From Barnesiella intestinihominis YIT 11860 (GTDB lineage: Bacteria > Bacteroidota > Bacteroidia > Bacteroidales > Barnesiellaceae), in assembly GCF_000296465.1 (NCBI RefSeq), contig NZ_JH815203.1, positions 1,099,453-1,163,452 of the forward strand: 64,000 nt of DNA, written 5' to 3'. Position 1 is the first letter of the stretch; each line of letters starts with the position of its first letter. Made by a program: the position numbers and the translations under genes. Of this stretch, positions 20,998-59,541 are shown piece by piece. Below the pieces are notes generated by a model. It was given only the letters and a program-made list of their open reading frames with translations, did no database searches and was not told the origin of the DNA.

Positions 20998-21033
20998 ACT
21001 CTTATTATTTGGCACAAAGATAGCGCAAACAAA

Positions 21034-21061
21034 AGCCGAAACAAAAAAATTTGTTTCGGCT
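21034..21061 (-). terminator. Terminator of the phosphodiester-polymer locus
   Basis: A perfect 12-base stem (AGCCGAAACAAA / TTTGTTTCGGCT) with a 4-base loop, followed on the minus strand by TTTGTTTG. It lies 80 bases after the last stop of the minus-strand run. Confidence 0.8.
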
Positions 21062-21140
21062 CACAAAATTTATTTTCACACCTCTACACACAGATATTCA
21101 AAATCTTCACATGAATCGATATTTTCATACGGTATCACAT

Positions 21141-22145
21141 TCAGTCTTTCTCTACGATAGCCAATCCATTCCCGACAGCTCTGGGAGAACCATCGGAAGG
21201 ACGATTACGAACAATAAACGAAGCCTTCGCCTTTTCATCTTCGTCCCGCAAAACCATTATCGAGGAACCTCCCCCGTCATAATTCACGGCATCATAGCTA
21301 CCTATTCCCCACATAAAATCGGCCAATTCGTAAATATCCAATCCCTCGGCATAATTCGTTCGCCGGCCATCTACCACCACGACGTACAACGTTTGTTTGT
21401 CTTCCGACAGTCCTATTGCCGTACGGGGGTGTGTATCGCACAAATATGTACCTATACTGCTGATCCCGTCATTAAATACACCTCGTTTAATCAAACAGCC
21501 CAAACCGCCCAATGCTTGATAAATATCGGCTTTATGTTTGATAACATTGCTGGCAATATCGATATCCACCTTTCCGTCCTTTGTCATATAGACCGTAAAT
21601 TCATGATTGGGATCTTGCCACCAATCGCTCAACGGATATCCGTCTTTCCAAAAAAGATGTTTCGGTTTAATTAAAGTCGTTTCACCTTTCGAGTCTTTTT
21701 CATACACCCAAAAACCACCGTTCACGGCAACATGCACCCGACGTCCCGAATTTTCGAGATACTTCGTTTGTTCGGGAATCGTATTGACTTTTGTCGGCAT
21801 GGTATTCACTTCACCGAACGGTGTAGTCGTCGCAATAGTCAATTTATTCACGTCGACTTCCGCCACATAAGCATGCTGGCGAGCCTTAGCTGTATGAAAA
21901 TCAATCTCGGAAAATACCAATCCCGGATACCGCTCCTCTGTCGTCACCCGATTTACTTTCACCACCAAATCGGTACGACTCAATATTTTCTTCACCAAGA
22001 TCGAAGTCGTATCGGTCGTAACCGGGAACGAAGGGGTATTATCCCCCTCTTTCGAAGGTTCGTCTTTCGATCCGCAAGCTACAAAACCGAATATCAAACC
22101 TATCAATAAAAGTTTGCTCCAATAATCTCTGCCTAACTTTATCAT
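21141..22145 (-). CDS. Phosphodiester glycosidase lipoprotein (NAGPA/DUF2233 family)
   Basis: 334 residues from the ATG at 22145; a TTG four codons upstream is possible. A lipoprotein signal ends at FGFVACG. The catalytic domain (about 80-330) has the family marks HVAVNGGFW, HPRTAIGLSEDKQTLYVVVVDG, the ELADFMWGIG helix and NYDGGGSSIMV. In animals the family removes GlcNAc from GlcNAc-1-phospho-6-mannose; bacterial and phage members act on sugar-1-phosphodiester bonds. It follows the EEP gene by 12 bases and ends the operon. It is likely a periplasmic or surface enzyme for the polymer imported by the SusCD pair upstream. The exact substrate is unknown. Confidence 0.88.
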   Translation of the reverse strand: MIKLGRDYWSKLLLIGLIFGFVACGSKDEPSKEGDNTPSFPVTTDTTSILVKKILSRTDLVVKVNRVTTEERYPGLVFSEIDFHTAKARQHAYVAEVDVNKLTIATTTPFGEVNTMPTKVNTIPEQTKYLENSGRRVHVAVNGGFWVYEKDSKGETTLIKPKHLFWKDGYPLSDWWQDPNHEFTVYMTKDGKVDIDIASNVIKHKADIYQALGGLGCLIKRGVFNDGISSIGTYLCDTHPRTAIGLSEDKQTLYVVVVDGRRTNYAEGLDIYELADFMWGIGSYDAVNYDGGGSSIMVLRDEDEKAKASFIVRNRPSDGSPRAVGNGLAIVEKD

Positions 22146-22157
22146 AATATACTTCAA

Positions 22158-24722
22158 TTAATTATTTTTCAACACTTTGGTAAATTCTATACCACCCGAC
22201 CTATCGTTGGTTTCCACCATATAAACACCGGCCGGCAAAATCGACACATCGACAGGTCGACCCGAAACCGCCTCTCCTTTCATTTGCAAACTACCCGACA
22301 GGTTATATATTGTATATCCAACTGTAAAACTATCAGAAATAACATAAAGGTTATCTTCCGAAACAAAAACTCTTATCGAATTCTGTTGTACATTAGGTTC
22401 CATTCCAGACTCTCCTGTATATTCATAAGCACCTATCATAGAGCCGGTAGTATTGCGGATTACGCCTCTCCCATCGACAGCCAGATTATCCGTATAAACT
22501 CCATTATCGTTTATGTCGATATAGAAAGTAGATTCCCTCAGAGCAGCAGCACTCAATACATTCAGGTTATTATTTCCGCATGCAACGGACTTCACTTTTA
22601 CAGTAGGTGCAAATCCTCCATTATCGGATAACAGCAAAGATAATTTTCCATCGACGATTTCACTATCCAACACTTTCTGCAAATCCTGCACACAACGGTC
22701 ATAATTGCGACATACCATATCGGTAGATTTTGCCGTAATATTCATTCTATCTGCTCCACCATACAAATTATACGTAGAGTTTTGCAAGGAGGCCGACTCT
22801 CCTAAATAGACTTCCCCCGCAGCGGCAGCCGAAGAAAAATTACCGGCGATTATGTTATTTACCAATCTCACCTTTCCCGAAATCACATGTACGGCAGAAC
22901 CGTTGAAATTGGCCGAAGGAATGCCGCTCGTCGTATAACACGAATCGGTATTGCCGACAATCGTATTATTCACCAAATTCAAACTTCCCGCCCCCGACTT
23001 AAAATAAATAGCGCTACCTCCATTGGTTTTATCGGAAAGCGAACTGCTTTTCGCAGTCAACCGATTATTGACGAATGTATTATTGACAAATGTACTTACC
23101 ATATACTCCGACTCGCCCATCTGCGTATAAACCCCGTTCCGACTACTGACATTATCGGCTATCGTATTCCCCGACAACAAGGAAAAAATCACACCGTCCG
23201 AATACCCCGAACTACCTTGTGTCGCTCGATTCTGCACGAAATAGGAATCAGATATATGCGACCGCCAACCCGGAGAAGCCAAATAAAATGCTCCACCCTG
23301 AGAACCGGATTGATTTCGAGCAAACATCGTCCGATTTATATTCAAATTTCCCCCGGAATATATAGCACCTCCATACGCCAAAGCATAATTATCACACAAC
23401 TCCACATCTTTCAAAATGAGGTCTATTCCTTTCGAATAAATAGCGGCTCCGCTATTGAAGCCGGTCACATCGGCATATCCCCCGGTCAACTTCAAACCGT
23501 CGAGTTCCACAAAACAAGAATCGGCAACGGTCATTATATGATAGACATTATCCTCCGCACCCGATGCAATACGACCCGACTCATCGGTCACATCGTTCCG
23601 GTTCAAATCTCCCGACAATTCCGTTTTCCCGACTACCGAAGAGAAACTCTCGTCATATCCGCCATGAATACGAACGCTCTTATACACGTTTACCGTCGCT
23701 TGCCGACCTGCATGCGACGATGTTTCCACCGGATAGAAAACGCCTTCTGTCATAAAAATAGTATCGTGTTTCGAAGCGACATCGATAGCCTCCTGCAAAT
23801 TATTGAACGGGGCGTTTTTCGAACCATCGGGAACAGCCGACGGAGTCGTGCTCACATACCACTTGCCCCGCTCCAAATTATCTTTAAATGTGCAAGTAAT
23901 CAAAATGGGTAAATGATCGGAAGGCGTAATCCCTCTCCCGAAGTCTTCTGTAATCGTCTCGTAAGAAAGCACATTCACCCGATCGCAAAACACATAGTCT
24001 ATGGGTTCCCCTCCCGTAACGGCAGGATTCCACTGTGCAAACGTAGTACCCGGTCCAACCGGAGCCGTCTGCGTCACCTTGCGACTATCGTCTAAATAAG
24101 CGTTGAATGTGTTATACATCGCTTTCTCCGCATAATAGGCATTGAAGTCACCCACGATAATAGCGGGATAACCGTCTGCTATTTCCTGCATTTTCTGCAC
24201 ATTGATCCGCGCCCCTTCGGCACGTGCAAGCACGCCCTTATGGTCGAGGTGCGTGGAGAAATAGAAAAATACATCGCCGGTCGTCTTGTCCTGTAATTTC
24301 ACCCACACGGTATTTCGGCGTACCGCCGTATCCCATGACAAATCCGGAGCCGCCGGGTTCGATGTCAAGAAATACTGACCCTTATCCAGCAAAGTAAACT
24401 TCCCGGCTTTGTATACGATTGTCGTATGCGTACCGCTTGTCTCGGAAATCGCTCCCCAAGAATGAGTCGCATAATCGTCGCCCAACAATTCCTCCAATTG
24501 AGGCAACATCTTGATGCTGTTCTCTTGCAAGCCCACCACATCGAAATCATGCTCCACAATATTTCTGACCACATATTCTTTCCGCACATTCCAATCTTTA
24601 TCTCCCGTATCGGCCGCATTCTCCCCTCGGATATTATACGACCCCATTCTATACACAGGCGAAGCCGAAAGCCCGGCTATCATGCCAAAGAATACCACCG
24701 ATAATAAAAATCTGCTTTTCAT
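22158..24722 (-). CDS. Exported EEP phosphodiesterase fused to a beta-helix and T9SS tail
   Basis: 854 residues from the ATG at 24722, chosen for its signal peptide (MKSRFLLSVVFFGMIAGLSA); upstream in-frame Met codons only add a hydrophilic leader overlapping the previous gene. Residues about 22-285 are an endonuclease/exonuclease/phosphatase domain with every key motif: GSYNIRGEN, GLQEN, FSTHLDHKG, IVGDFNAYY, DYVFCD and PSDHLPI. Residues about 290-760 form a right-handed beta-helix of the choice-of-anchor-Q type (WYVSTTPSAVPDGSKNAPFN...IHGGYDESF). A T9SS type A tail ends in KVLKNN. The EEP domain cleaves phosphoester or phosphodiester bonds with a metal; the neighbours suggest a phosphate-linked glycan or glycerol-phosphate target rather than DNA. 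Confidence 0.85.
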   Translation of the reverse strand: MKSRFLLSVVFFGMIAGLSASPVYRMGSYNIRGENAADTGDKDWNVRKEYVVRNIVEHDFDVVGLQENSIKMLPQLEELLGDDYATHSWGAISETSGTHTTIVYKAGKFTLLDKGQYFLTSNPAAPDLSWDTAVRRNTVWVKLQDKTTGDVFFYFSTHLDHKGVLARAEGARINVQKMQEIADGYPAIIVGDFNAYYAEKAMYNTFNAYLDDSRKVTQTAPVGPGTTFAQWNPAVTGGEPIDYVFCDRVNVLSYETITEDFGRGITPSDHLPILITCTFKDNLERGKWYVSTTPSAVPDGSKNAPFNNLQEAIDVASKHDTIFMTEGVFYPVETSSHAGRQATVNVYKSVRIHGGYDESFSSVVGKTELSGDLNRNDVTDESGRIASGAEDNVYHIMTVADSCFVELDGLKLTGGYADVTGFNSGAAIYSKGIDLILKDVELCDNYALAYGGAIYSGGNLNINRTMFARNQSGSQGGAFYLASPGWRSHISDSYFVQNRATQGSSGYSDGVIFSLLSGNTIADNVSSRNGVYTQMGESEYMVSTFVNNTFVNNRLTAKSSSLSDKTNGGSAIYFKSGAGSLNLVNNTIVGNTDSCYTTSGIPSANFNGSAVHVISGKVRLVNNIIAGNFSSAAAAGEVYLGESASLQNSTYNLYGGADRMNITAKSTDMVCRNYDRCVQDLQKVLDSEIVDGKLSLLLSDNGGFAPTVKVKSVACGNNNLNVLSAAALRESTFYIDINDNGVYTDNLAVDGRGVIRNTTGSMIGAYEYTGESGMEPNVQQNSIRVFVSEDNLYVISDSFTVGYTIYNLSGSLQMKGEAVSGRPVDVSILPAGVYMVETNDRSGGIEFTKVLKNN

Positions 24723-24733
24723 ATTCAAAATAA

Positions 24734-27211
24734 CTATCTGTTTATCCATATTTTTTGCGAGAACACTTTGCCGTCGGTCACTATCCTCACTATATACATA
24801 CCTATTCCCGGAGCCGATATATGATTGCTGTTTTCGGTCAAAGAGACCAAACACCCCGAAACATTATACAACTCGACCCGATCAACCGCCTTACCCAGCA
24901 ATATCGTCCGTCCCGATACAGACAAATCCAAAAACTTACCTTCTACCGTTTGAACGTCCGAAGCATTTTCATTATAATAATTATAAACCAATTCCACGGC
25001 CGGAATATCTATCCGATAATTTTGCCCCAACGTATTTATATCCATACCCAATGTAAAATGCGAGAGCACCAATGGATAATTCGCTATATCGAAAACATCG
25101 CCCAAAACATCGGGGAAAGCTATATCGCATATATTCTCTTTATTCGCTTCGGGAATCGGTAAATCGACTGCGACTGTCTTTTTCGACGGAAGTCTCAATG
25201 TGCAAGAAAACGTCTTAACCTTCGCTTCTCCCGGATTTATATGAATCCGTAATGTATCGGGCAGACTATACAGAGGGATATCTCCTGCCAAAGAAATCGT
25301 TTTCGCCGAAGTACTGTTATATAAAAACGATATTTGTAACCCCTCTTTCTCGGAATTAGTTACCGACGTATTTTTAAACCCGGCCGAGGTTGTGAAAGAA
25401 ACTTTTAGCCAATCGGGAGTTCCGTCATTTATATTCAATACATGTTTCGAGGGCTCCTGCACTTTCACTTTCAGAGTATCCGATACCTCCGATATAGAGC
25501 CACATATCTCGGCCATTCCGTTTTGCAAGCCTTTCAAAACGCCATTCTCCACAAAAGCTACATGCTCGTCCGAACTGCTCCACGAAAGCACACTCGGATT
25601 AAGAGGCACTACCTCGCCGGTACTTTTCGTCATCGACACTTCCACCGGATACTCATAATGACAATCGCTCACAACCGAATCCAATCTGAAAACAATATTA
25701 TCTATATCCTCTTTCACCACGACCTCCATTTCACAAGTATATCCGGCCGGTGTGCGAGCATAAATTTTACCCAAACCTATACCGTCGGCAACAAAAGTCT
25801 TACCATTGGCTTTTACATATCCTATCTGTTCGTCACAAGTAATCGTATAATTAGACATTTCCGTATTTATCAACAGTCCATAGGCATTATACCCGTAAAC
25901 GGTCGGACTATATTCCTCTCCTTTGGATATGACATGCGGAGGTGTCGCAAAATCTATTCCCCCGACAAACGAAGATGCAGGTGCTGTGGAAACCACGAAT
26001 ACACCATCGCCGACCTTACGCTGCACACCTTTGGAGCTGGGATAGTTCCTTACCCCCAACATACTGGTATACAATGTGCTCGAACCTCCTCCATCTAAAT
26101 TCAGTGCCTCATCGGCTCCGGCATATCGCATCAAGTCGGCCAATTCCCGGGTACGAACGCCTCGCGAAATTTCGGTACGACCATCGCAGACCAACATAAT
26201 CAATTTCTTCTTATCCTTACTGTACCCGATTGAAGTACGGGGATGCCACTCTATGGCATCAGCTCGCTCCCCTTCCGTATTCAATACCTCCCCGTTTCCC
26301 AATATCTTAGGATTACCGGTAGTCAGATGTTCCACCATAACGGTCTCGCCATCAAACGACATAGGTAAATTCACCTCTACTTCGTCCCCGTCATTCAAAC
26401 TTTGAATAAAAGGCCCTGCCAAGCCTTTTCCGCTAATTACGTACCCACCGTCGGGAATCGCCATATTGGTCCCTCTCGCCCATGCTCCTTTCACGGTCAT
26501 CTTACAAGGCTTCCCGGGAACTAAGCGTTCTCCTGCTTTCGGCATCAATGCGACCTCATAATACATCGGGAAAGAACTACCTGTCACCTGCGTCACTTGC
26601 CCCGGCATTTTATCGGTATAGAGAATAATTTTATTATTTCCGGCGTTAACATTTACTCCCGATATCTCATACGAATCGGTAACCGTAGTAATCGTCCCGG
26701 TAAAATCGACCGAAGCATTGCTAAGGTACGGTACTTTATCGGACGTAATTCCAAAATGACGGCATATCGCCGATGTAGATGTCCTATAAATTTCACCTTC
26801 GGCAACCGACGCATGATGCGGCCTACCGACAATACTGGTTTTTCCGTCGTTCGCAGTCCCCGACATCGCAAAAAAACCACCGTTGATTCCCGCAAAATAA
26901 AGACTTTCGCCCTCCACACTATGACTTTCCGCCATCTGTGTAACAGTTTGAGCACCGGCTAAATGATCCGTAGCGCACACTGTCCTTATATCCACATAAG
27001 GATCGGTAAGATCTACCGTCAAATAAAAAACCGTCAATGTCGTATCGGGTCCCGTCAATAACAATGATGTCTGCGTAGTCCCGGGACCTATTTTAGCATG
27101 AAACGTAGTATCTACCCGATAGTCCGTATTCCAAACTTTCCACGTAACGGAAGCATATGAATTGCATACCGTTAACCATAAAACCAGCCATAAATAAATT
27201 TTCAATTTCAT
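24734..27211 (-). CDS. Phosphodiester glycosidase with Ig-like domain and T9SS tail
   Basis: 825 residues with a signal peptide (about 1-20). A NAGPA/DUF2233 domain (about 90-410) has FAGINGGFFAMSG, WHPRTSIGYSKDKKKLIMLVCDG, RGVRTRELADLMRYAGA and NLDGGGSSTL. A BIG2-like domain follows (about 535-600, 'LSWSSSDEHVAFVENGVLKGLQNG'). A beta-rich region and a T9SS-like tail (ELYNVSGCLVSL, GIGMYIVRIVTDG, KIWINR) end the protein. It is a larger relative of the lipoprotein two genes downstream. Its gap to the EEP gene is 11 bases, so the two are surely co-transcribed. It is likely surface-exposed and makes the first cuts on the polymer. Confidence 0.87.
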   Translation of the reverse strand: MKLKIYLWLVLWLTVCNSYASVTWKVWNTDYRVDTTFHAKIGPGTTQTSLLLTGPDTTLTVFYLTVDLTDPYVDIRTVCATDHLAGAQTVTQMAESHSVEGESLYFAGINGGFFAMSGTANDGKTSIVGRPHHASVAEGEIYRTSTSAICRHFGITSDKVPYLSNASVDFTGTITTVTDSYEISGVNVNAGNNKIILYTDKMPGQVTQVTGSSFPMYYEVALMPKAGERLVPGKPCKMTVKGAWARGTNMAIPDGGYVISGKGLAGPFIQSLNDGDEVEVNLPMSFDGETVMVEHLTTGNPKILGNGEVLNTEGERADAIEWHPRTSIGYSKDKKKLIMLVCDGRTEISRGVRTRELADLMRYAGADEALNLDGGGSSTLYTSMLGVRNYPSSKGVQRKVGDGVFVVSTAPASSFVGGIDFATPPHVISKGEEYSPTVYGYNAYGLLINTEMSNYTITCDEQIGYVKANGKTFVADGIGLGKIYARTPAGYTCEMEVVVKEDIDNIVFRLDSVVSDCHYEYPVEVSMTKSTGEVVPLNPSVLSWSSSDEHVAFVENGVLKGLQNGMAEICGSISEVSDTLKVKVQEPSKHVLNINDGTPDWLKVSFTTSAGFKNTSVTNSEKEGLQISFLYNSTSAKTISLAGDIPLYSLPDTLRIHINPGEAKVKTFSCTLRLPSKKTVAVDLPIPEANKENICDIAFPDVLGDVFDIANYPLVLSHFTLGMDINTLGQNYRIDIPAVELVYNYYNENASDVQTVEGKFLDLSVSGRTILLGKAVDRVELYNVSGCLVSLTENSNHISAPGIGMYIVRIVTDGKVFSQKIWINR

Positions 27212-27262
27212 AGTACGACATCAAACTTATTATTAAGAAAAAAGGTAATGAGAATGTGAAAA

Positions 27263-27292
27263 TATGCTGCCGGAAAGAACTCCGGCAGCATA
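27263..27292 (-). other. Terminator-like hairpin inside the locus
   Basis: A perfect 12-base stem (TATGCTGCCGGA / TCCGGCAGCATA) with a 6-base loop in the 110-base gap after the beta-helix gene, followed on the minus strand by TTTTC. It could reduce transcription into the three enzyme genes downstream, or protect the upstream message. Confidence 0.7.
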
Positions 27293-27321
27293 CCAGATGA
27301 AAAAACTACTTAATTGAGATG

Positions 27322-29106
27322 TTATTTAATCACTTTGAATGCCTGTCCGCTCACGGTCATAATATAAACACCCTTAGCAGCAGAGGACAAATCGATTACT
27401 TCATTGGCCGGTACAACTTTCACGACATTACCGCTCAAATTATAAACCGTCACGTCGGCATCTGCCCCATTCACTTGGAATATACCGTTACCCAACGTGC
27501 TTACCGAAACCTTGCTAACATTCGTCAGGTCTGTAATACCCGATGTAGCATCACCGTCATAAGCTCCCACACAAGTAGTAGCAGCGCGTTTGTAACCGCG
27601 TTGATCGACGGTCAAATCGATATTCTCCGGCAAGCTCCATTCGGTTTTTAAAGCGTTCAGTTCATCGAGAGTCAAACTCGACATACGGGTAGCCGGAACC
27701 AGCGTTTGTGTATTGCCTCCATTATCACCGAAAGTAGTCTCTCCGAATACATCGGCATAGGTATATGTTTCTGCATCGTTATCTTTCAAATACAAAAGTG
27801 ACGTCTTTTGAATTTCGGGAGTTTGCGTACGATCTCTCGGGGTAGTCCAAGAGGTACAATACCATGCCGTACCCGAAATATTATAACCGCCACTGTTCCA
27901 TGTGCCCGGACGAGTCGCACCATTACGGCTCAACAATATAGCTGTATTCGAAGGAGCTGCTTCGCCCAAAACACCGTTTACAACGTAATTATTCGCCATA
28001 TAATTGTATCCACCATAGCTCATCACACCCAAACCGCGACCGACATCCTTAGTGCCATTGTTATTACTACCAACCGTACGAGCTTCTTGTTCAGCGGTAT
28101 AATCTTTATTAGCAATCGTATTGGAAATCATATACATCGTCGTTCCGGGATAGCCCATTACAACACCGAATCCTTCGGTATAGTTATCGGCAACCAAACT
28201 GTTCACCAAATAGAGGCGGACACGCTCGTCACTGCTACCCAAAAAGATCGCCGATCCGCGAAGTTTATTGGTATAAGCCGGTTTGCCGTCTTGATATTCC
28301 GATTCAGGATAATAGTCGGTCGTAAAATAATTATCGGTAAACTGGCAGCGTTGAACCACGGCTTGCGTCAGATATTCATCTCCGGCATAAGTCGAGCTTA
28401 TAAACAAGCCTAAGGCAGTACCCTTCTCACTAGAAAAGTTTTCTGAAAAAACACAATCAGAGACATTTGCATCAGAAGCAATAAGCGTCAAACCAGATGT
28501 TCCGATAAAGGCGGCTCCATTTTGAATAAAGTTACACCATTGCATATCCAAATCGGTATTGAAGACCATCACCGCCCCTTTATAATTACTGGCACTATCG
28601 TAGTTGCGGAAAGCGTGTTTGAATGTGAACCCTTTTACGGTAATATTCAATCTCGTTTTCGTATCTACCCCGTCTATTTCCTCACGTCTCTGTATATACC
28701 ACAAGTGAGTACGGTTACCGGGAACAGCTGCTACATCGCTCTCGATAGCCCCTGAAATGACAGTTTCATAAGGAGAAGGATACGTAATATCTGTATTCGT
28801 ACCCGTACTGGCAGGGTCAAAACCGCCCAAAAGAGTCACACTTCGATTAATAGCTAAATATTTGTCGAAATCGGGAGAGGACAATTTATACACTCCACCG
28901 GCAAAACAAAAGACATCGCCATCGGCAAAGTTTCCTTGTTCCATATTCTCGGCAAAATAGTCATAACTAATCGCTTGTTCCCACGACGAACCGTCCGTAT
29001 CGTCAGAACCGTCAACTTTTATAAAATACGTCGTGGCAAACGCACTGGGTGCTGTCGCCAACATAAACCCTGCAACAAGCAGGCAAGAAGTCAATTTTCT
29101 TTTCAT
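27322..29106 (-). CDS. Right-handed beta-helix (choice-of-anchor Q) protein with T9SS tail
   Basis: 594 residues from the ATG at 29106; a GTG two codons upstream is in frame. A signal peptide (about 1-24) is followed by the family start TTYFIKVDGSDDTDGSSWEQAI, a parallel beta-helix with many Asn/Ser-rich turns, and a closing CVGAYDG. A T9SS type A tail (TVYNLSGNVVKV, AAKGVYIMTVSG, KVIK) follows. In SusCD loci such proteins act as surface glycan binders or lyase-like scaffolds; no catalytic motif is recognised. It sits 88 bases after susD, where SusE/SusF-type binding proteins are often found. Confidence 0.82.
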   Translation of the reverse strand: MKRKLTSCLLVAGFMLATAPSAFATTYFIKVDGSDDTDGSSWEQAISYDYFAENMEQGNFADGDVFCFAGGVYKLSSPDFDKYLAINRSVTLLGGFDPASTGTNTDITYPSPYETVISGAIESDVAAVPGNRTHLWYIQRREEIDGVDTKTRLNITVKGFTFKHAFRNYDSASNYKGAVMVFNTDLDMQWCNFIQNGAAFIGTSGLTLIASDANVSDCVFSENFSSEKGTALGLFISSTYAGDEYLTQAVVQRCQFTDNYFTTDYYPESEYQDGKPAYTNKLRGSAIFLGSSDERVRLYLVNSLVADNYTEGFGVVMGYPGTTMYMISNTIANKDYTAEQEARTVGSNNNGTKDVGRGLGVMSYGGYNYMANNYVVNGVLGEAAPSNTAILLSRNGATRPGTWNSGGYNISGTAWYCTSWTTPRDRTQTPEIQKTSLLYLKDNDAETYTYADVFGETTFGDNGGNTQTLVPATRMSSLTLDELNALKTEWSLPENIDLTVDQRGYKRAATTCVGAYDGDATSGITDLTNVSKVSVSTLGNGIFQVNGADADVTVYNLSGNVVKVVPANEVIDLSSAAKGVYIMTVSGQAFKVIK

Positions 29107-29194
29107 AACCACTTTTTTTAGATTAGATTATTGGTAAATATTTATTTTTAGTGAGGAGAACAGAGATAGTCACCTCCATTCTCCCCAAAATAGC

Positions 29195-30946
29195 TTAATA
29201 AGACAAGCCGTCTTCCCAACCCGGGTTTTGAGTCAAACTATGATTCAGTGAACGTTCGTCGGTCGGTATCGGCCACAGATAATCACGTTCCTCATTCCAA
29301 GTCCGTTTCACATCTTTGTGAGGCCACATATATCCTTCGGTGTCGTTGGTCAGGAAGAAATCCACACCCAATTTATATTTGGTCAATCCCAAACCCGACG
29401 GAGCCTGATCCTTGTAAATAGCTGTTTCCATTTTTCCGTCTCCGTTCAAGTCGTACTTACCTTCTCCGGGGAAATAGACCCCATGATACTCGTTGGTAAG
29501 CTGTTTACCCTCTTTCCAACGAATCATATCGAACAAACGGAAACCTTCGAGACAAAGCTCTACCGTACGTTCGCGGCGTATTTCCAAAATCACACCGGTC
29601 ATCGCACTTTTCGTCACATTGGGATAACCGGTCACATCGGCCATCAAATAAGGATCTGGATTGGCATTCGCCTCGTCCATATCGATATGAGCATCTCCCA
29701 TTCCTGCCCGATCACGTAACAGATTGACCGAAATATCCAAATCGTCCTGCGTCAACGTTCCCAATTCGGCCTTAGCTTCGGCATAATTCAGATAAACTTC
29801 CGCCAAACGGAACAACGGGAAATACATCGGCGATTTGTTGGATTGGTCGTATTGCGGCTCCATCACATATTTGATGTATTGATAACCGGTCAAAGTAAAC
29901 TTCGACAAGGTATTGATCATCTCCTTCGTCGTACCTTTCTGTACGTAACCGGGAGTCAGAATCGTCTGAGACAAACGGGGATCGCGACCGGTCACTTCGG
30001 CTACGAACTCATTCTTTTCATGCCCGGGCTTATCGGTGTAACGAGAACCGTCGGCCATCAAATAATGATCTACGAAACGTTTGGTGAACGATACCCGTTG
30101 ATTACCCGTCATCGAATTGCACTGAGAATTATGCAAGACTGAAAGCTCCGTACTGTAACGACGTCCCAAGATGATTTCCTCGGCAGGAGCATCGAGCCGT
30201 GCGAACAAATCGCGATACGGAGTAGAACCTGTCTTATAAAGCGAGAATCCTCCTTTTTGAATCAATTCCAACGAAGCGGCAGCCGATTGTTTCAGCATTT
30301 CCTCCCAATCGCCCAAATTGTGATATTTACGGAACGTTCCTTCGAACAATGCAGCGCGGGATTTCAGTGCCAAAGCCGTCCATTTGTTCACTTCATACGG
30401 AGTCTTCGTCTCAGGCAACATAAATATCGCTTGGTCCAGATCTTCCATTACCTTTTGCATCACATATTTACGAGAATCACGGGGTTTATACAACAGTTCA
30501 TTATCCTTCGACCCGATTACTTCGTCGTAATAAGGCACATCGCCGTAACGCTGTACTTTCGTGAAATAGAAGTAAGCGCGCATAAAATGGGAGAAACCAT
30601 CGTAATGATTACGTGCGTTTACATCGTCACAATTTTTACACCATTGGAAATACGTATTTATGACACGTAAATCCTCCCAATCCCATGCTTTTTCGGTACC
30701 GGGAGTACGATTACCTAAAATCTCGTTATCCAAGATATTTTTGATGACATCGTCGGCACAGATGTCATTCAAATCATCGGCTCCGGGAAGCATACCATAA
30801 TAGGAATTCGTCCACAGACGCAGCTCCTCTTCGCTCGAAAAATAATTTTCGGGAGCCATCGTATCCTCGGGGATCAAGTCCAAATCGGTACAACCCATCA
30901 AAGCAGCCCCGGTCAACGTACAGAATATATATAAATACTTTTTCAT
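29195..30946 (-). CDS. SusD/RagB-family surface substrate-binding lipoprotein
   Basis: 583 residues. A lipoprotein signal ends in GAALMGC (Cys about 19). The SusD N-terminal motif (DLDLIPEDTMAPENYFSSEEELRLW), a TPR-rich middle (FRLAEVYLNYAEAKAELG) and the C-terminal RRERTVELCLEGFRLFDMIRWKEG and LWPIPTDE are all classic. It is the lid of the SusC porin encoded 20 bases upstream. The sequence class does not reveal the ligand; the genes downstream point to a phosphodiester-containing glycan. Confidence 0.95.
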   Translation of the reverse strand: MKKYLYIFCTLTGAALMGCTDLDLIPEDTMAPENYFSSEEELRLWTNSYYGMLPGADDLNDICADDVIKNILDNEILGNRTPGTEKAWDWEDLRVINTYFQWCKNCDDVNARNHYDGFSHFMRAYFYFTKVQRYGDVPYYDEVIGSKDNELLYKPRDSRKYVMQKVMEDLDQAIFMLPETKTPYEVNKWTALALKSRAALFEGTFRKYHNLGDWEEMLKQSAAASLELIQKGGFSLYKTGSTPYRDLFARLDAPAEEIILGRRYSTELSVLHNSQCNSMTGNQRVSFTKRFVDHYLMADGSRYTDKPGHEKNEFVAEVTGRDPRLSQTILTPGYVQKGTTKEMINTLSKFTLTGYQYIKYVMEPQYDQSNKSPMYFPLFRLAEVYLNYAEAKAELGTLTQDDLDISVNLLRDRAGMGDAHIDMDEANANPDPYLMADVTGYPNVTKSAMTGVILEIRRERTVELCLEGFRLFDMIRWKEGKQLTNEYHGVYFPGEGKYDLNGDGKMETAIYKDQAPSGLGLTKYKLGVDFFLTNDTEGYMWPHKDVKRTWNEERDYLWPIPTDERSLNHSLTQNPGWEDGLSY

Positions 30947-30966
30947 TGTTGTTCTGTTTTTAATCG

Positions 30967-33900
30967 TTAAAATGTAATGTCCACACCCACCGAGAAATTT
31001 CTCGAATAGTTATAAGCCATACCCGTGTTACCGTTTCCTCCGGCAGCTTCCGGATCGATATACTTGGTATATTTTTTCATCGGCGACCAGTACCAAAGGT
31101 TCTCACCGGTAAAATAGACACGCAGTTTGGTAAAAACCTTTTTCAAAACCGGCAATGTATAACCCACCGTCAAGTTTTTCAAACGGATATACGATGCATC
31201 CTGCAAATAACGGTCATTATTTACACCCAACTGACTATCGGCGAAAGTCTGATAACCGCGGAAACGAGGTAAATACCCACCGGGATTCTCTTCGGACCAG
31301 CATTGATCCATAAAGTTCTCGGGAATAAAGCTCGTGAATGCCCGAGCATAAGGTCCCCAGAAGCCGGTGGAGAGATGACTTGGATACCAATCTCTCTTAC
31401 CTACCCCCTGGAAGAAGATACCTAAATCGAAACCATTCCAGTCGGCCCCTAAACGAAAACTATAATTATAACGAGGTGTCTCGTTACCGATAATCTCTCT
31501 ATCACCCGGATCATATACTGTATCATCACCTTTATTGATCACATTATTATTGTCCAAATCACGGAATTTCAAATCGCCGGCACGATAATAAGGTTCCACT
31601 TTATCCGATAAAATACGGGCATTTACGAAATCTTGATTGATTTTCGATGTATATTCGGTAGCCTCCTCGTCCGAGGCAAACAACCCATCTATCCGATAGC
31701 CCCAAATTTCACCCAAAACCATACCTTCATAATAGTCGATAAGCAATTTTTCAGGATTGTTATACTTCGTAATGACCGTTTTGTTATCGCCCAAAGAGGC
31801 AGACACCGTATAATTAAACCGTTTCCCCATCAAAGCGAACGAATCGTTCCAATTCAATGAAAGTTCCCAACCCTTAGTGCGCAAATCGGCACAATTTTCT
31901 TTGGGTTCCTTAGCACCGAAAACGCTCGGCAACACATACGACTTAGCCAACATACCCTCGGTATCCCGAATAAAATAATCGCCCGTAAAATTCAATCGGC
32001 TATTGAGGAACGACATATCCAAACCTATATTCCATGTAGCGATCGTCTCCCATGTAAGATAACTGGTCTTAGGATCGCTTGGATAAGCATATTGCAATTT
32101 GCTCGTCCCATCGAGCGTATAATTCAAAGTTCCACCTGTATTGATCTCCTCTAAATAAGCATACTCATCGACACCATGCTGATTGGCCAATTTACCATAA
32201 GAAAGACGTATTTTCGTATTATCCACTACGTCTCTAATAGGTTCCCAAAAATTCTCCTCGCTGATACGCCAACCGGCAGAAGCAGAAGGGACGAACACCC
32301 AACGGTGATCGCTACGGAAACGGGAAGTGCCATCGTAACGGGCACTCACTTCCAACAGATAACGGTTCTTATAATCGTAGTTCACCCGACCGAAAAAGCC
32401 ACTGTTACGCCATTCCGAAATTGTCTGACTTCGGGTTATATCCCCTGTCGCATTGGCAAAACTCGACAAATTCTCACTCAACAGATTCAACTGTTCCAAC
32501 CTCAGATAAGTATCTCGTGCACCTCGATATTGATAACCAGCCAATGCCGTAAAATTATGCGCCTTGTTCCATGTATGAGTATAAGTTCCATACACATTCA
32601 AATTGTGCTCGTTCGTCTCATAATGATTTTCCCGATAATAATCCTTGAAGTTACCGGTAACAATTGTTTTTTCCTCACCCTGCTTATTGGAATAGTGCAA
32701 ATTATGGTTCCGAACTTTATTCAATCGCCCACGATACTTATAACTATAATCTACCGTCAATACCAAATCCTTGAAAATATCGATATCAAAACGATTTCCT
32801 ATAATTATATACTTTTGATTGTTAGCATGGCGCGCGCGATTGTCCACCAAATAGGGAGGGGTTCCATTAATGGTAGTATTGGCATGTGTCTCGGCATAAA
32901 TAGCCTTACCTTCGGGAGTCTTGGCAGGCCATGATGCCATCAAAGTTTTATCCACTTCCATCAACGTATTGTCTATGGTCGACAAACCGCTGTATTTATA
33001 CGAAGAAGAGAAAAAGTTCATATTAGTCGAATAGCGTAACCACGGCTTGATTTTCACATCGAGTTTCGCTCTTGTAGAATAAGTGTCATAAGTATCTGGG
33101 TTGATATTGAAAATACCCTCCTCGCGATTATAACGACCGCTCACATAATATTTCACCTTATCGTTACCGCCTCTCACCGAAAGGTTATATTCCTGCTGGG
33201 GACGAGTTTTACGGAACAGATAATTGTACCAGTCGAAGTTGGCATAATAGCGATATGAACCGTCGTCCTGCAAAACGATCCACGGACGATCGGGATGCTC
33301 AGTCTTGTCGTTGCGACGCTCATACAGCATTTGCATTTCCTCTTCGGTATAATTGGTAAAATTGGTCGCATATTGCGAATAATAGGCCTTATCGACCAAA
33401 CTTACCTGATCGTAGCCCGTAGTCATATAATCGGTCGATGTCGTGTTTTGCGACCAACCGAAACGCCCGTTAAAACTTATACTGGCCTTTCCGGCAGCAT
33501 CCGAGCCTGTCTTAGTGGTAATCAAAATCACACCTTTCGAAGCCGTCGCACCGTAAATAGAAGCTGCCGAAGCATCTTTCAAAATAGAAACTGACTCGAT
33601 ATCGTTGGGATTGACCATATTCAACTCGGTCACTACTCCATCGACCATAATCAGCGGTGTGTTTGATGTCGATATAGACGATTCACCACGAATATTCAAA
33701 TCATATCCACTGCTGGAACGACCGGAAGACATCTTCAAATTCATCGAAGGATCGGCTCCCTGCAACGCCATGGCAACGTTACTTACCGGACGAGCATTGA
33801 TTTCTTTGGCACTGATGGTTCCCACAGCTCCGGTCAAATTGACTTTTTTCTGCGTACCATACCCCACCACAACCACTTCATTCAGTAATTGATTGGCTTC

Positions 33901-34224
33901 TTTTAATTTAACCAGAACAAAGTTTTTTCCATTTACAGGAATACTTTGTTTTTCATAACCGACATACGAAACCTCCAACGTTGCATTAGCAGGTATGTCT
34001 TTCATAGTAAAAGCACCGTCGGCATCGGTCGAACGACCGATAGAGGTACCCGAAACTTTAACAACAGCCCCGATAATCGGTTGGTCATATTCATCTAAGA
34101 CCCTACCAGTCAACTGATTGCTGGCTCCCACGGACTGTGCGAACATCTGGAAACCAGACATAAAGGCGATAATCAAGAGTAAACAAGACCATCTCCTGTG
34201 CAGTGTGTTCGTTAGTAAATTCAT
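30967..34224 (-). CDS. SusC/RagA-family TonB-dependent transporter
   Basis: 1085 residues, normal length. A signal peptide (about 1-29) is followed by a carboxypeptidase-regulatory-like domain (LTGRVLDEYDQPIIGAVVKV...), the SusC TonB box region NEVVVVGYGTQKKVNLTGAV, the plug (NVAMALQGADPSMNLKMSSG, SSISTSNTPLIMVDGV, SILKDASAASIYGA) and a 22-strand barrel ending FSVGVDITF. It imports oligomers released at the surface. It is preceded by glpT (98 bases, with a hairpin in the gap) and followed by its SusD partner. Confidence 0.96.
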   Translation of the reverse strand: MNLLTNTLHRRWSCLLLIIAFMSGFQMFAQSVGASNQLTGRVLDEYDQPIIGAVVKVSGTSIGRSTDADGAFTMKDIPANATLEVSYVGYEKQSIPVNGKNFVLVKLKEANQLLNEVVVVGYGTQKKVNLTGAVGTISAKEINARPVSNVAMALQGADPSMNLKMSSGRSSSGYDLNIRGESSISTSNTPLIMVDGVVTELNMVNPNDIESVSILKDASAASIYGATASKGVILITTKTGSDAAGKASISFNGRFGWSQNTTSTDYMTTGYDQVSLVDKAYYSQYATNFTNYTEEEMQMLYERRNDKTEHPDRPWIVLQDDGSYRYYANFDWYNYLFRKTRPQQEYNLSVRGGNDKVKYYVSGRYNREEGIFNINPDTYDTYSTRAKLDVKIKPWLRYSTNMNFFSSSYKYSGLSTIDNTLMEVDKTLMASWPAKTPEGKAIYAETHANTTINGTPPYLVDNRARHANNQKYIIIGNRFDIDIFKDLVLTVDYSYKYRGRLNKVRNHNLHYSNKQGEEKTIVTGNFKDYYRENHYETNEHNLNVYGTYTHTWNKAHNFTALAGYQYRGARDTYLRLEQLNLLSENLSSFANATGDITRSQTISEWRNSGFFGRVNYDYKNRYLLEVSARYDGTSRFRSDHRWVFVPSASAGWRISEENFWEPIRDVVDNTKIRLSYGKLANQHGVDEYAYLEEINTGGTLNYTLDGTSKLQYAYPSDPKTSYLTWETIATWNIGLDMSFLNSRLNFTGDYFIRDTEGMLAKSYVLPSVFGAKEPKENCADLRTKGWELSLNWNDSFALMGKRFNYTVSASLGDNKTVITKYNNPEKLLIDYYEGMVLGEIWGYRIDGLFASDEEATEYTSKINQDFVNARILSDKVEPYYRAGDLKFRDLDNNNVINKGDDTVYDPGDREIIGNETPRYNYSFRLGADWNGFDLGIFFQGVGKRDWYPSHLSTGFWGPYARAFTSFIPENFMDQCWSEENPGGYLPRFRGYQTFADSQLGVNNDRYLQDASYIRLKNLTVGYTLPVLKKVFTKLRVYFTGENLWYWSPMKKYTKYIDPEAAGGNGNTGMAYNYSRNFSVGVDITF

Positions 34225-34277
34225 AATTTTTTTGATTTATGGTTCTTATTAAATTAGAAGTTTCTATATATTATTAT

Positions 34278-34300
34278 AAGGAATGAAAAATCCATTCCTT
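34278..34300 (-). other. Hairpin between glpT and susC
   Basis: A perfect 8-base stem (AAGGAATG / CATTCCTT) with a 7-base loop in the 98-base gap. No T-run follows on the minus strand. It may separate expression of glpDT and the Sus genes without stopping transcription. Confidence 0.5.
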
Positions 34301-34322
34301 TAACAAGCTATCTTTTAACTAT

Positions 34323-35648
34323 TTACAAACGATTCTCCTTACAAAACAACATTAACACAACAGTTACGGCACAAGCGGATAGCAACAGAATAAAACCTCC
34401 GTCCCAACCGAAATGCTCGAAAATATATCCCATACCGATATTGGCAAACACGGCCGATCCTAGCAAATAGCCGAACAACCCCGTGAAACCGGCAGCCGTA
34501 CCAGCCGCTTTTTTAGGAACCAAATCCAAAGCCGAGACTCCTATCAACATTACCGGACCGTAAATGAGAAATCCTATCGCAGCCATAGCTACGTTGGTTA
34601 CCATCGCCGAAGCACTATTCCAATAAATATAAACCGCCAGCATAACCAGCAACATATAAATAATAGTCACCGGACCGCGACGGCCTTTAAAAACTTTATC
34701 GGAAAGCCAACCGCAAAGTATAGTTCCGAAAATACCGGCTATTTCGAACGCAAAATACGACCAACTGCTATTCGCCAAATCCATGTGCTTCACCTGTTCG
34801 AGATACATCGGCGCCCAATCTAACACACCATAACGTACAAAATAGATAAACGCATTGGCAAAAGCGATAATCCACAAAAGCTTATTATTGAAAACATGCC
34901 CGAACAGAATTTCTTTGGTAGAGAGTTCCTTTTCCTGTTCGGCGGAATATGCCTGAGTACACTCTTCCGGCTTATATAGTTCGATAGGCGGTAATCCACA
35001 GGATTGAGGCGTATCACGCACCAGTAAATAGGCAATTACAGCAATGATTACGGCAACCATAGCCGGGAAATAGAAAGCTCCGCCCCAGACTCCGAAAATG
35101 GTAATACCGAAAACCGCCAAAGGAGCCATAAGAGCTCCACCGACATTATGAGCGATATTCCATATAGACATCTTTACGCCTCGTTCCCGGACAGAAAACC
35201 AGTGAACCATCACCCGGCCACACGGAGGCCAACCCATACCTTGCACCCAACCATTTACAAATAAGATGCAGAACATAAGCATGATAGAAAGCGAACTGAC
35301 CGTCCACGGGATAAGACCCATAACAGTCATAATCACTGCCGAAGCTATCAATCCCAAAGGTATGAACACACGAGCATTGCTATGGTCGGAAACTGTACCC
35401 ATCACGAACTTACTGATACCATAAGCTATCGAAACGGCAGACAAAGCCCAACCTAAATCGGCCTTATCGAAACCCATCTGTTCGAGTGCAGGCATGGCAA
35501 TCGAAAAATTTTTACGTACCAGATAATAACCTGCATACCCGATAAATATACCGAGAAAGACCTGTAATCTTAACTTCTTATACTCCTTGTCCACCCGTTC
35601 TTTGGGAAGCGGATCGATAACCGGAGCCGGTTGGAATAACTTCAACAT
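34323..35648 (-). CDS. glpT: Glycerol-3-phosphate transporter (MFS)
   Basis: 441 residues with 12 predicted membrane helices. It belongs to the organophosphate:phosphate antiporter group: YKKLRLQVFLGIFIGYAGYYLVRKNFS near the start, then NGWVQGMGWPPCGRVMVHWFSVRERG, and VSALDLVPKKAAGTAAGFTGLFGY. It exchanges glycerol 3-phosphate for phosphate across the inner membrane. UhpT is the main alternative, but the adjacent glpD (22 bases upstream) fits GlpT. Its position directly before susC links G3P import to the outer-membrane system. Confidence 0.9.
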   Translation of the reverse strand: MLKLFQPAPVIDPLPKERVDKEYKKLRLQVFLGIFIGYAGYYLVRKNFSIAMPALEQMGFDKADLGWALSAVSIAYGISKFVMGTVSDHSNARVFIPLGLIASAVIMTVMGLIPWTVSSLSIMLMFCILFVNGWVQGMGWPPCGRVMVHWFSVRERGVKMSIWNIAHNVGGALMAPLAVFGITIFGVWGGAFYFPAMVAVIIAVIAYLLVRDTPQSCGLPPIELYKPEECTQAYSAEQEKELSTKEILFGHVFNNKLLWIIAFANAFIYFVRYGVLDWAPMYLEQVKHMDLANSSWSYFAFEIAGIFGTILCGWLSDKVFKGRRGPVTIIYMLLVMLAVYIYWNSASAMVTNVAMAAIGFLIYGPVMLIGVSALDLVPKKAAGTAAGFTGLFGYLLGSAVFANIGMGYIFEHFGWDGGFILLLSACAVTVVLMLFCKENRL

Positions 35649-35670
35649 ACACTATCCTCTCTCTAAAAAA

Positions 35671-37239
35671 TCAGGCTAAAATATAATTTTTTGCCAGATT
35701 GGTAAAATTTTTAACTTGTTCCGTTTCCCAATTTTTATCTTTTCCCATTTCACGAGCCATAATAGCCGCTACACGAGGAGCCATTTCCATAGCAGCCCGA
35801 GCATCCATAAAGAGCGCCCGAACACGTCGTGCCAATACATCTTCCACCGTTTGAGCCATCTCCTCCCGCACAGCCCAAATAACATGAGCTACCCGGAAAG
35901 TATATCCGATATGAAGCAACTCTCCCAACGAGGCATCGTTTTCTATCAATGCTGCGATTTGGTCGGCATCGCTACCGTACACGTAATCCCAAACCGAACG
36001 GTCCACTTCTTCCCGGTAACCATGTAATTGCATTTTACGAGTCACACAGGCTCTCGGTTCCAAACCGATCAAAGCAGCCACTTTATTCACCGCTTCTTCG
36101 GCCATCTGACGATAAGTGGTCCATTTCCCTCCGGTTATCGTAAGCATTCCCGAATCGGAAACATATATTTTATGATTCCGTGAAATTTCTTTGGTCTTTT
36201 TGGAATCGCTATGCGTAGGAGCAGCCAACGGCCGCAATCCGGCGAACACAGACAATACATCGCTGCGTTTCGGTTTACGAGTCAGATACTGCCCCGCCTG
36301 ATCGAGAATAAAATCTATCTCCTCGTCCAGAGGCTTCGGTTCTAATGAATTTTCATTCAATGGCGTATCGGTAGTTCCCAATACGGCCTTTCCATGCCAC
36401 GGTACACCGAACAATACTCGTCCGTCCCTTGTCTTCGGTATCATCAAAGCCGAATTTCCTCCCAAGAAAGCGGCATCGACTACAATATGCACTCCCTGAC
36501 TGGGACGTACTTTCTTGCGACTCTCCGGCTTATCCATTTGCATGATATCGTCCACATAAACACCGGTAGCGTTCACTACCCCTTTTACATTTACTTCATA
36601 CGTTCCGCCTTCGAGAGTATCTTCCAAAACCGCCCCGCAAATCTTCCCAGAATCATTCTTAATCAAAGACGTTACTTTCATATAATTGATGCATATCGCA
36701 CCGTGGTCATGAGCACTCTGCATCAATGTAATCGCCATTCTCGAATCGTCGAATTGCCCGTCGTGGTAAACCACGCCTCCGCGCAAATGATCGTGCAGCA
36801 GTCCCGGCAGCTCCTTCAAGGTCTGTTTCTTGGACAAAGGCAAAGACCGTCCCAAGCCCAATCGCCCGGCCAACAAATCGTAACAACACAACCCGATGGT
36901 ATAAAAAGGACGTTCCCACCAACGATAGTTGCCGATAATGAAACGCATATCCTTTACCAAATGGGGGGCATTGCGCCATAAGCGACCACGCTCATGCAAC
37001 GCTTCCACAACCATAGATACATCGCCTTGTTGCAAATAGCGAACCCCTCCATGTACCAGCTTCGTGCTTCGACTCGAAGTCGCTTTTGCAAAATCGTGTT
37101 GTTCTACCAATAGGACACGGTATCCCCGACTCGAAGCATCCACCGCCACGCCCAAGCCCGTAGCACCGCCACCTATTATCAATAAATCCCATGGTCTCTT
37201 TTCTTCGGCCATCTGTTTTATCAAGCCTTCACGTTTCAT
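35671..37239 (-). CDS. glpD: FAD-dependent glycerol-3-phosphate dehydrogenase
   Basis: 522 residues. The FAD-binding start (LLIIGGGATGLGVAVDASSRG) is followed by the family signature ATSSRSTKLVHGGVRYLQ, GRVLFGVPWHGKAVLGTTDT, and the C-terminal DAO_C domain. It oxidises G3P to dihydroxyacetone phosphate and gives electrons to the quinone pool at the inner membrane. It is the first gene of the run, facing away from the DeoR-type regulator. No glycerol kinase or facilitator is present in the window, so the input appears to be G3P itself rather than free glycerol. Confidence 0.93.
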   Translation of the reverse strand: MKREGLIKQMAEEKRPWDLLIIGGGATGLGVAVDASSRGYRVLLVEQHDFAKATSSRSTKLVHGGVRYLQQGDVSMVVEALHERGRLWRNAPHLVKDMRFIIGNYRWWERPFYTIGLCCYDLLAGRLGLGRSLPLSKKQTLKELPGLLHDHLRGGVVYHDGQFDDSRMAITLMQSAHDHGAICINYMKVTSLIKNDSGKICGAVLEDTLEGGTYEVNVKGVVNATGVYVDDIMQMDKPESRKKVRPSQGVHIVVDAAFLGGNSALMIPKTRDGRVLFGVPWHGKAVLGTTDTPLNENSLEPKPLDEEIDFILDQAGQYLTRKPKRSDVLSVFAGLRPLAAPTHSDSKKTKEISRNHKIYVSDSGMLTITGGKWTTYRQMAEEAVNKVAALIGLEPRACVTRKMQLHGYREEVDRSVWDYVYGSDADQIAALIENDASLGELLHIGYTFRVAHVIWAVREEMAQTVEDVLARRVRALFMDARAAMEMAPRVAAIMAREMGKDKNWETEQVKNFTNLAKNYILA

Positions 37240-37442: not shown

Positions 37443-37468
37443 TATGGAACAAATATTATAATATTATT

Positions 37469-38233
37469 ATGCTTAGTATAGCCGAAAGACACAAACACAT
37501 TCTTGACAAGCTCAATGCGCAAGGGTTCGTGAAAGTTTTAGATATCGCCCGCGAATTGGACGTGACACCTGTAACGATACGAAAAGACTTGAAATTACTG
37601 GAAGAAAAGAAATTGCTATTTCGTACACATGGAAGCGCCAGTCCGGTAAACCCTCACACGGCAGATATCAATATACATATTAAAGAGCGAATAAACAGCG
37701 ATGCCAAACGGCGTATCGCCCATACAGCCATTCGTCTACTCGATCCGAACGACTCGATTATCGTCGCCTCGGGAAGCACAGTGTATGCATTCGCCGAAGA
37801 AATTACAGACGATCTAAACCTGACAGTCGTCACGGCTTCGCTCAACGTCTCTACTTTGCTCAACCGTTTCGAGCACATTCATGTGATCCAGCTCGGCGGA
37901 ACATTGCGAAAAAGTTCTTTCTCGGTCATCGGCGATTTAGCCGCACAGGCATTCGACAATCTTACTTGTTCCAAACTATTTATGGGAGTAGACGGTATAG
38001 ACCTCGATTTCGGGCTGACGACCTCGAACATAGACGAAGCCCGGCTCAATCAACGTATGATCGCAGCCTCGCTACGAACGATCGTCCTTGCCGACTCTTC
38101 CAAATTCGGGAAAAGAGGATTCGGGAAAATCTGCACACTCGACCAAGTCGATGTCATCATCACCGACTCGGGTATTTCGCCATCGGTAGCAAAAAGCATA
38201 GAGGAAGCAGGAATAGAACTAATCATTGCATAA
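37469..38233 (+). CDS. DeoR-family transcriptional regulator, probable G3P repressor
   Basis: 254 residues from the ATG at 37469, which starts the classic MLSIAERHKHILDKLNAQG; an upstream in-frame Met at 37412 would overlap the promoter. The helix-turn-helix is VKVLDIARELDVTPVTIRKDLKLLEEKKLLFRTHG (given as positions about 20-54), and the effector domain (about 75-254) has IVASGSTVYAFAEEI, GGTLRKSSFSVIG, MGVDGIDLDFGLTT and VLADSSKFGKRGF. Such sensors bind a phosphorylated sugar or G3P. Divergence from glpD makes GlpR-like control of the neighbouring run the simplest reading. Confidence 0.88.
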   Translation: MLSIAERHKHILDKLNAQGFVKVLDIARELDVTPVTIRKDLKLLEEKKLLFRTHGSASPVNPHTADINIHIKERINSDAKRRIAHTAIRLLDPNDSIIVASGSTVYAFAEEITDDLNLTVVTASLNVSTLLNRFEHIHVIQLGGTLRKSSFSVIGDLAAQAFDNLTCSKLFMGVDGIDLDFGLTTSNIDEARLNQRMIAASLRTIVLADSSKFGKRGFGKICTLDQVDVIITDSGISPSVAKSIEEAGIELIIA

Positions 38234-59528: not shown

Positions 59529-59541
59529 CTCTTTTATTTCA

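Follow-up and report, generated by a model that had tools for sequence, protein, structure and literature searches.

Gene content and organization of the locus

The analyzed stretch of Barnesiella intestinihominis YIT 11860 (the window; 64,000 nucleotides of contig NZ_JH815203.1, positions 1,099,453 to 1,163,452) contains a run of eight genes on the minus strand, reading from position 37239 to 21141 with intergenic gaps of 0-110 bases, and a DeoR-type regulator gene diverging from it, as determined from open reading frames (ORFs), Pfam and NCBIfam (Table 1). Behind the regulator gene the order is glpD, glpT, susC, susD, a gene for a beta-helix-like protein, a first NAGPA-family gene, a gene encoding an EEP domain joined to a second beta-helix-like region, and a second NAGPA-family gene. 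All eight genes and the regulator gene announced in an earlier sequence-only reading of this DNA were recovered at that position. The host genome is 3.44 Mb in size and 99.98% complete. Genome scans scored the best few candidates per genome, and the counts given below are lower bounds, own genome included.

Table 1. Features of the locus, with window positions, strand and basis of assignment
Feature	Position	Strand	Basis
DeoR-type regulator, divergent	37469..38233	+	DeoRC and HTH_DeoR above Pfam cut-off; ORF 37412-38233, start 37469 inferred via orthologues
Two operator-like boxes GAAAACGAAAYGAAAW with TTTCGTTT repeats	37348-37363, 37375-37390	-	motif scan
glpD, glycerol-3-phosphate dehydrogenase (FAD)	35671..37239	-	DAO and DAO_C (Pfam)
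glpT, glycerol-3-phosphate transporter	34323..35648	-	TIGR00712 equivalog
susC-like TonB-dependent outer-membrane transporter	30967..34224	-	TIGR04056
susD-like surface lipoprotein	29195..30946	-	SusD_RagB PF07980
Beta-helix-like secreted protein, C-terminal sorting tail	27322..29106	-	TIGR04183 tail; helix by eye
Conserved hairpin in gap ahead of enzyme genes	27261..27294	-	comparison of three genomes; folding
NAGPA-family phosphodiester glycosidase, long form, C-terminal sorting tail	24734..27211	-	PF09992; TIGR04183
EEP-superfamily phosphoesterase, beta-helix-like region, sorting tail	22158..24722 (start inferred)	-	PF03372
NAGPA-family phosphodiester glycosidase, short lipoprotein-like form	21141..22157	-	PF09992; 3ohg match
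Terminator-like hairpin, between last gene and HAD gene	21033..21062	-	13-pair stem, T tail

The two upstream genes, together with the divergent DeoR/GlpR-type regulator, supply the elements by which a glp operon is recognized, namely GlpT and a glycerol-3-phosphate (G3P) dehydrogenase. GlpT scored above the cut-off of the NCBIfam glpT equivalog TIGR00712 (639.4 versus 632.55 bits). GlpD, the only DAO_C match found in the host genome, exceeded the Pfam cut-offs for DAO and DAO_C, its best NCBIfam model being NF008899 at 314.9, below the cut-off of 360. A single FGGY kinase was found in the genome; its highest score was 495 bits as a rhamnulokinase (below the cut-off of 528), compared with 46 bits as GlpK, and its gene adjoins those for L-rhamnose isomerase and RhaT. 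The lack of a recognizable glycerol kinase is consistent with G3P, rather than glycerol, being the currency of the operon; such a kinase would be unneeded because the glycerol is proposed to come in already phosphorylated. No GDPD gene was found in the operon; the genome has three GDPD matches, all at other sites, one of them in another NAGPA-SusCD cluster. A GDPD encoded outside the operon could possibly serve this GlpT.

SusC scored 873.9 against a cut-off of 368.25 for TIGR04056, SusD passed the cut-off for PF07980 with 168.5 bits, and their genes are spaced 20 bp apart. The adjacent SusC and SusD pair by which polysaccharide utilization loci are defined is present; the glycoside hydrolase (GH) or polysaccharide lyase (PL) usually linked to it was not found, NAGPA being a phosphodiester glycosidase by name. 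No GH, PL or SusE/F match was obtained among the nine locus proteins (Pfam, E 0.01), in line with the sequence-only reading, the lyase part of which is less firm. Some known lyases have beta-helix folds, and the beta-helix proteins may therefore conceal one. Where that reading had counted a single beta-helix protein the run encodes two by eye, the EEP protein having a beta-helix-like C-terminal region of its own. The first of them had no catalytic Pfam match and is possibly a glycan binder or an unrecognized enzyme. Among the genes adjoining the run no SusR, hybrid two-component or extracytoplasmic function (ECF) regulator was found, the DeoR-type protein being the sole adjoining regulator, and a megablast search of plasmids with the susC gene gave no match.

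The NAGPA and EEP proteins

Both NAGPA proteins passed the PF09992 cut-off (100.5 bits for the long and 104.1 bits for the short form) and kept the motifs HPRT(S/A)IG and N(L/Y)DGGGSS, which we take to be the active-site motifs of the family; in the long form these read HPRTSIG and NLDGGGSS. The short protein, which has a Cys after a signal-like stretch, aligned with 3ohg over residues 78-337 of 338 (E 6e-42), while the long protein matched 3ohg and chains of the uncovering enzyme more weakly and over a shorter stretch. Family membership and motifs place both with the NAGPA/DUF2233 phosphodiester glycosidases (3ohg and the 6pkg-type uncovering enzyme), from which they differ in their location within a SusCD-glp operon. 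According to PMC12419801, NAGPA frees phosphodiester-linked sugars. By the chemistry of the family, a NAGPA enzyme that cuts sugar-1-phosphate-R would leave glycerol phosphate if R were glycerol.

The EEP domain (PF03372) spans residues 71-314 of an 898-residue ORF, the remainder of which is beta-helix-like by eye and ends in a TIGR04183 C-terminal sorting tail; judging from the orthologues, a start near 24722 is likelier than one at 24854. The residues and motifs SYN, QE, THLDH, GDFN and SDH are present. Its nearest solved chains were 3mpr and 4c1r (both approximately 4e-29), the latter labeled a mannosyl-6-phosphatase, so that the name phosphodiesterase previously given to the protein proved too specific. 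These relatives suggest that it may be a phosphomonoesterase rather than a diesterase. The 4c1r enzyme presumably belongs to a mannan SusCD locus, with which the present locus would share an EEP relative. Among the matches listed, the only other near-full-length relative combining EEP and beta-helix regions (35% identity; L138 and L146 in genome G173, contig C10) adjoins an alkaline phosphatase gene, and SusCD-like ORFs lie approximately 8 kb away.

Ten NAGPA matches were found in the host genome. Three of these lie next to one another in a SusCD cluster that also has GHL10 (L023, C1:1012000-1031900), one belongs to a SusCD cluster containing GH3 and a fusion of GDPD, esterase and DUF4855 (L030, C1:512000-531900), and one gene is separated by a single gene from an alkaline phosphatase (L032, C3:554000-573900). 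Because other NAGPA genes of the genome sit in such unlike clusters, NAGPA alone is not diagnostic of glycerol phosphate.

Closer inspection of these clusters yielded some additional observations. L030 also encodes DUF6259, and the esterase of its fusion is of the GDSL type; it is a candidate for another phosphodiester-glycan locus. Clusters of the L023 type, with SusCD, a GHL10-like gene and one to three NAGPA genes, recurred by eye across Bacteroidales (L024-L027, L171-L173, L175 and L176), several of them with an amidase-like gene, the Pfam support being limited to GHL10 in L023 and the amidases in L025 and L171. These NAGPA-GHL10 clusters look cell-wall directed. The NAGPA gene of L032 is short.

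Conservation within Barnesiella and comparison with the standard glp operon

The eight genes and the regulator gene were present in the same order in three of the nine Barnesiella genomes searched (own, G003 and G007). Compared with their counterparts in G003 and G007, GlpD, GlpT and the regulator were 91-93% identical, SusC and SusD 83-85%, and the remaining four proteins 68-84%. Because its order persists in three genomes whose proteins are 68-93% identical, the gene set was judged not to be a chance juxtaposition. As the sequence-only reading had required, glpD and glpT are co-conserved with the SusCD block, preceding it in all three genomes that have it. Orthologues of the long NAGPA protein were confined to the same three of nine genomes, the other matches not exceeding 41% identity in long alignments or 49% in short segments of the NAGPA domain. 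A contig scan with two seven-residue peptides, which detects close relatives only, retrieved the two orthologous loci L033 and L034.

Five other Barnesiella genomes encode a GlpT that is 57% identical and located in an operon of the standard kind (divergent DeoR, then glpA-glpB-glpC-glpT-GDPD), followed by Porin_O_P in four of them, while the contig of the fifth stops within the GDPD gene. Unless Pfam or NCBIfam is cited, genes in such neighborhoods were named by tblastn and by eye. When the genomes with the SusCD-type locus were compared with the GDPD of the standard operon, two gave short, weak matches only and the third none. The sixth other genome, G004, has neither form; its sole GlpT-like match was 31% identical and GDPD gave no match.

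At the level of the order and phylum, GlpT was detected in at least 20 of 393 and at least 7 of 385 genomes, respectively (E<=1e-120). The corresponding numbers in the order were at least 7 of 393 for SusC (E<=1e-250) and at least 129 of 393 for the EEP protein (E<=1e-25), while the long NAGPA protein was found in at least 11 of 384 genomes (E<=1e-50). Outside the three SusCD-NAGPA loci, 28 GlpT loci were found with four extra genus genomes counted, and 27, among them those of the five Barnesiella genomes, were read, G266 being left out. A GDPD gene adjoins 20 of these 27, Porin_O_P 8 and SusCD 3, some of the loci being cut by short contigs or nearby contig ends (L058, L097 and others). Three observations were not counted as neighbors: in L093 a GDPD-like match of 168 bases, in L095 a SusC gene located approximately 5 kb away from glpT, and in L090 SusD- and SusC-like ORFs seen by eye past the regulator.

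In the GlpT tree, from which L097 was omitted as ended by a contig edge, the copies from the three SusCD-NAGPA loci formed a clade of their own (100/100), and the other Barnesiella sequences fell within a 12-row clade that excluded them (100/99), with the deep forks unresolved. With the two Barnesiella forms split in this way, the locus appears to have replaced the standard glp module rather than to have been inserted behind it. What it shares with the glp operon of Bacteroidota (L057 and L092, in which a divergent DeoR precedes glpABC or glpD, glpT, GDPD and Porin_O_P) are the regulator type, the G3P dehydrogenase, GlpT and the octamer TTTCGTTT in the gap. In contrast, SusC, SusD, the beta-helix protein, both NAGPA proteins and the EEP protein take the place of GDPD and porin, and no GlpK was found in the genome. 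This pattern suggests that SusCD modules may be exchangeable for porin modules within a metabolic operon.

The three SusCD neighborhoods among the 27 are L091, L163 with L177, and L164 with L178. Two of them, in G518 and G751, are of another order of the same class and consist of a divergent DeoR followed by glpD-glpK-glpF-(GDPD)-SusC-SusD-(metallophosphoesterase)-GDPD-glpT, the bracketed genes being confined to G518; in G751 an unassigned gene follows SusD. L091 (G014, contig C43) reads GH13-SusC-SusD-GlpT-metallophosphoesterase-GH31-metallophosphoesterase. SusCD thus appears to have become linked to G3P uptake on more than one occasion, in every case together with phosphoesterases.

Regulator and putative control sites

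Orthologues of the regulator in G003 and G007 (L180 and L181) are 92-93% identical. The top NCBIfam model was AgaR, below its cut-off, as it was for the regulators of two GDPD-type operons, and GlpR models ranked lower for all three proteins. The gap between the regulator gene and glpD contains the boxes GAAAACGAAATGAAAT and GAAAACGAAACGAAAA, both exact in the window and in G003, with one exact and one carrying two mismatches in G007. At up to two mismatches the box motif had four matches in the window versus 0.56 expected, and only the two in this gap were exact. The octamer TTTCGTTT, which lies within or across these boxes, occurred in 14 of 17 gaps upstream of glp genes (11 of 14 when this locus and its two orthologues are left aside), and in eight of the 14 gaps that hold it no more than 3 of 300 shuffles were as good; motif and octamer had been selected after inspection of the window. 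Taken together, regulator profile and octamer are compatible with a sensor of the G3P type, without amounting to proof.

In the hairpin that separates the beta-helix gene from the first NAGPA gene, bases of the core stem are conserved across the three genomes. Folding of this gap gave -27.1 kcal/mol at a z of -5.35, matched by 0 of 200 shuffles, and the hairpin lacks a strong T tail. It is possibly an attenuator or a stabilizer of the transcript end, and it could allow the SusCD part and the enzymes to be made at different levels. The gap with the terminator-like hairpin behind the last gene had a folding z of -3.10 (3 of 200 shuffles as good), and the corresponding site in G003 and G007 is occupied by another inverted repeat with a T run. 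Because this hairpin precedes it, the downstream HAD gene was set outside the operon; it is also the neighbor in G003 and G007 (74-75% identity) and is thus not excluded by conservation. A sigma-70 scan with 41 promoter-like sites versus 38.4 expected was uninformative.

Proposed function and alternatives

The gene content and its correspondence to the standard operon make it reasonably probable, in our judgment, that the locus is a G3P-scavenging operon with a front end built from SusCD, which would free sn-glycerol-3-phosphate from a phosphodiester-linked glycan. SusD and SusC would capture and import the phosphodiester-joined glycan or oligomer, the NAGPA enzymes would cut the sugar-1-phosphate side of its phosphodiester bonds, and the EEP protein would act on the leftover phosphodiester or phosphomonoester. 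The sn-glycerol-3-phosphate produced would cross the inner membrane through GlpT and be oxidized by GlpD to dihydroxyacetone phosphate, with the DeoR protein repressing the operon as a GlpR-like sensor until substrate arrives. Utilization of a glycerol-phosphate polymer had been proposed in the sequence-only reading. The G3P part of that proposal gains strength from the comparison with standard glp operons, whereas the polymer and teichoic acid are still what we infer.

Several observations weigh against this interpretation. The EEP protein resembles a phosphomonoesterase, the best model of the regulator is AgaR and not GlpR, and NAGPA genes also occur in clusters without any glp gene, for example with GHL10 and an amidase. 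The block was found in three genomes of one genus, where its linkage to glpD and glpT may be one event, and these two genes could be a separate function merely located upstream. The conserved hairpin separates the SusCD part from the enzyme genes. In six of the 14 gaps that hold the octamer 10-35 of 300 shuffles matched it, and it is missing from three gaps. Structure predictions from three-row alignments had a mean pLDDT of 36.6 for the long NAGPA protein and 38.4 for the EEP and beta-helix protein.

In its sharpest form, which is not an exclusive rival, the G3P-scavenging interpretation would have the wall and lipoteichoic acids of Gram-positive neighbors as targets, with NAGPA cutting GlcNAc-1-phosphate or glucosyl-1-phosphate links and EEP trimming glycerol-phosphate units. 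Teichoic acid would be the most attractive target, and we put this form forward tentatively. Human NAGPA removes GlcNAc from a GlcNAc-1-P-6-sugar diester, and the linkage between wall teichoic acid and MurNAc is of the same bond type. The genome has a second NAGPA cluster, with GHL10, of a type whose amidase was confirmed by Pfam in two other genomes, and glucosylated glycerol phosphate would be a suitable substrate for the G014 locus, which has GH13, GH31 and two metallophosphoesterases. Fusions of NAGPA with surface phosphoesterases of the calcineurin-like type have been described, with teichoic acid, among others, as their predicted target (PMC11188070). On the other hand, the operon has no Pfam match to GDPD or to a metallophosphoesterase (PhoD-like teichoicase). 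That the operon is dedicated to Gram-positive teichoic acids, SusCD importing wall-polymer fragments, NAGPA cutting GlcNAc-1-phosphate or glycosyl-1-phosphate links and the glycerol-phosphate backbone being used directly as G3P with no need of a glycerol kinase, is a somewhat more doubtful proposition; if true, Barnesiella would, with this operon and the NAGPA-GHL10 cluster, feed on entire Gram-positive walls.

A phosphate-scavenging system resembling those of Flavobacterium, acting on several organic phosphates with G3P as one product, appears unlikely. The SusCD clusters of Flavobacterium combine phosphoesterases with inner-membrane organophosphate transporters, were published as phosphate utilization systems and are induced by phosphate depletion, with polygalacturonase-like lipoproteins in related clusters (PMC8115612). 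The regulator adjoining the present run is of the DeoR type, however, and GlpD points to the use of carbon.

Digestion of phosphomannan-like glycans by SusCD, NAGPA and EEP, with NAGPA uncapping sugar-1-phosphate, EEP removing sugar-6-phosphate and glpDT as an unrelated neighbor, seems more improbable still. It would agree with 3mpr and the mannosyl-6-phosphatase 4c1r as closest relatives of EEP and with the uncover-then-dephosphorylate order, in which NAGPA comes first and a phosphomonoesterase second. Against it, Pfam assigned neither a mannosidase nor any other GH family to the run, glpDT precedes the block in every genome with the block and SusCD is found beside GlpT elsewhere too, and the octamer and divergent regulator are like those of glp operons. 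Glycerophospholipid head-groups (glycerophosphodiesters) as substrate, with EEP in the stead of GDPD, would fit a locus that occupies the place of the GDPD operon of other Barnesiella genomes, yet SusCD and two NAGPA proteins are hard to account for with such small substrates, and we regard this as the least probable explanation.

Relation to described systems

Like other SusCD polysaccharide utilization loci, the G3P-scavenging operon proposed here has a SusC-SusD pair with secreted enzymes; unlike them, its run has no GH/PL, SusE/F, hybrid two-component or ECF match and possesses an inner-membrane arm specific for G3P. It resembles the PusCD clusters in that phosphoesterases replace carbohydrate-active enzymes next to SusCD, some of those clusters having inner-membrane organophosphate transporters, and would differ in that PusCD clusters are Pi-regulated (PMC8115612). 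The main text of that paper mentions neither GlpT nor teichoic acid.

The gut should be rich in teichoic acids and other phosphodiester glycans. In the open-license literature searched, no SusCD locus was found to be assigned to these substrates, nor was a locus found that combines NAGPA/EEP with SusCD and GlpT, the latter result being weak evidence of absence. The assertion that no such locus had been described holds for this exact set in that literature; it has to be narrowed in view of the other SusCD-plus-GlpT loci and the published Flavobacterium phosphate systems. With its G3P uptake arm, SusCD and NAGPA, the operon is a named candidate locus that carries a prediction of G3P release and G3P induction, and it offers a testable substrate class for bacterial NAGPA proteins.

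Other genes in the window

A beta-helix-like repeat protein of 4559 residues (38388-52067) is encoded facing the regulator; its counterpart in G007 (L181) has 4583 residues, while in G003 (L180) only a 540-residue ORF was found there. L-rhamnose genes for a class II aldolase, RhaT, RhaA and a rhamnulokinase-like kinase are located at 58731-63422, and a BspA-type leucine-rich-repeat protein of 1280 residues is encoded at 5241-9080.

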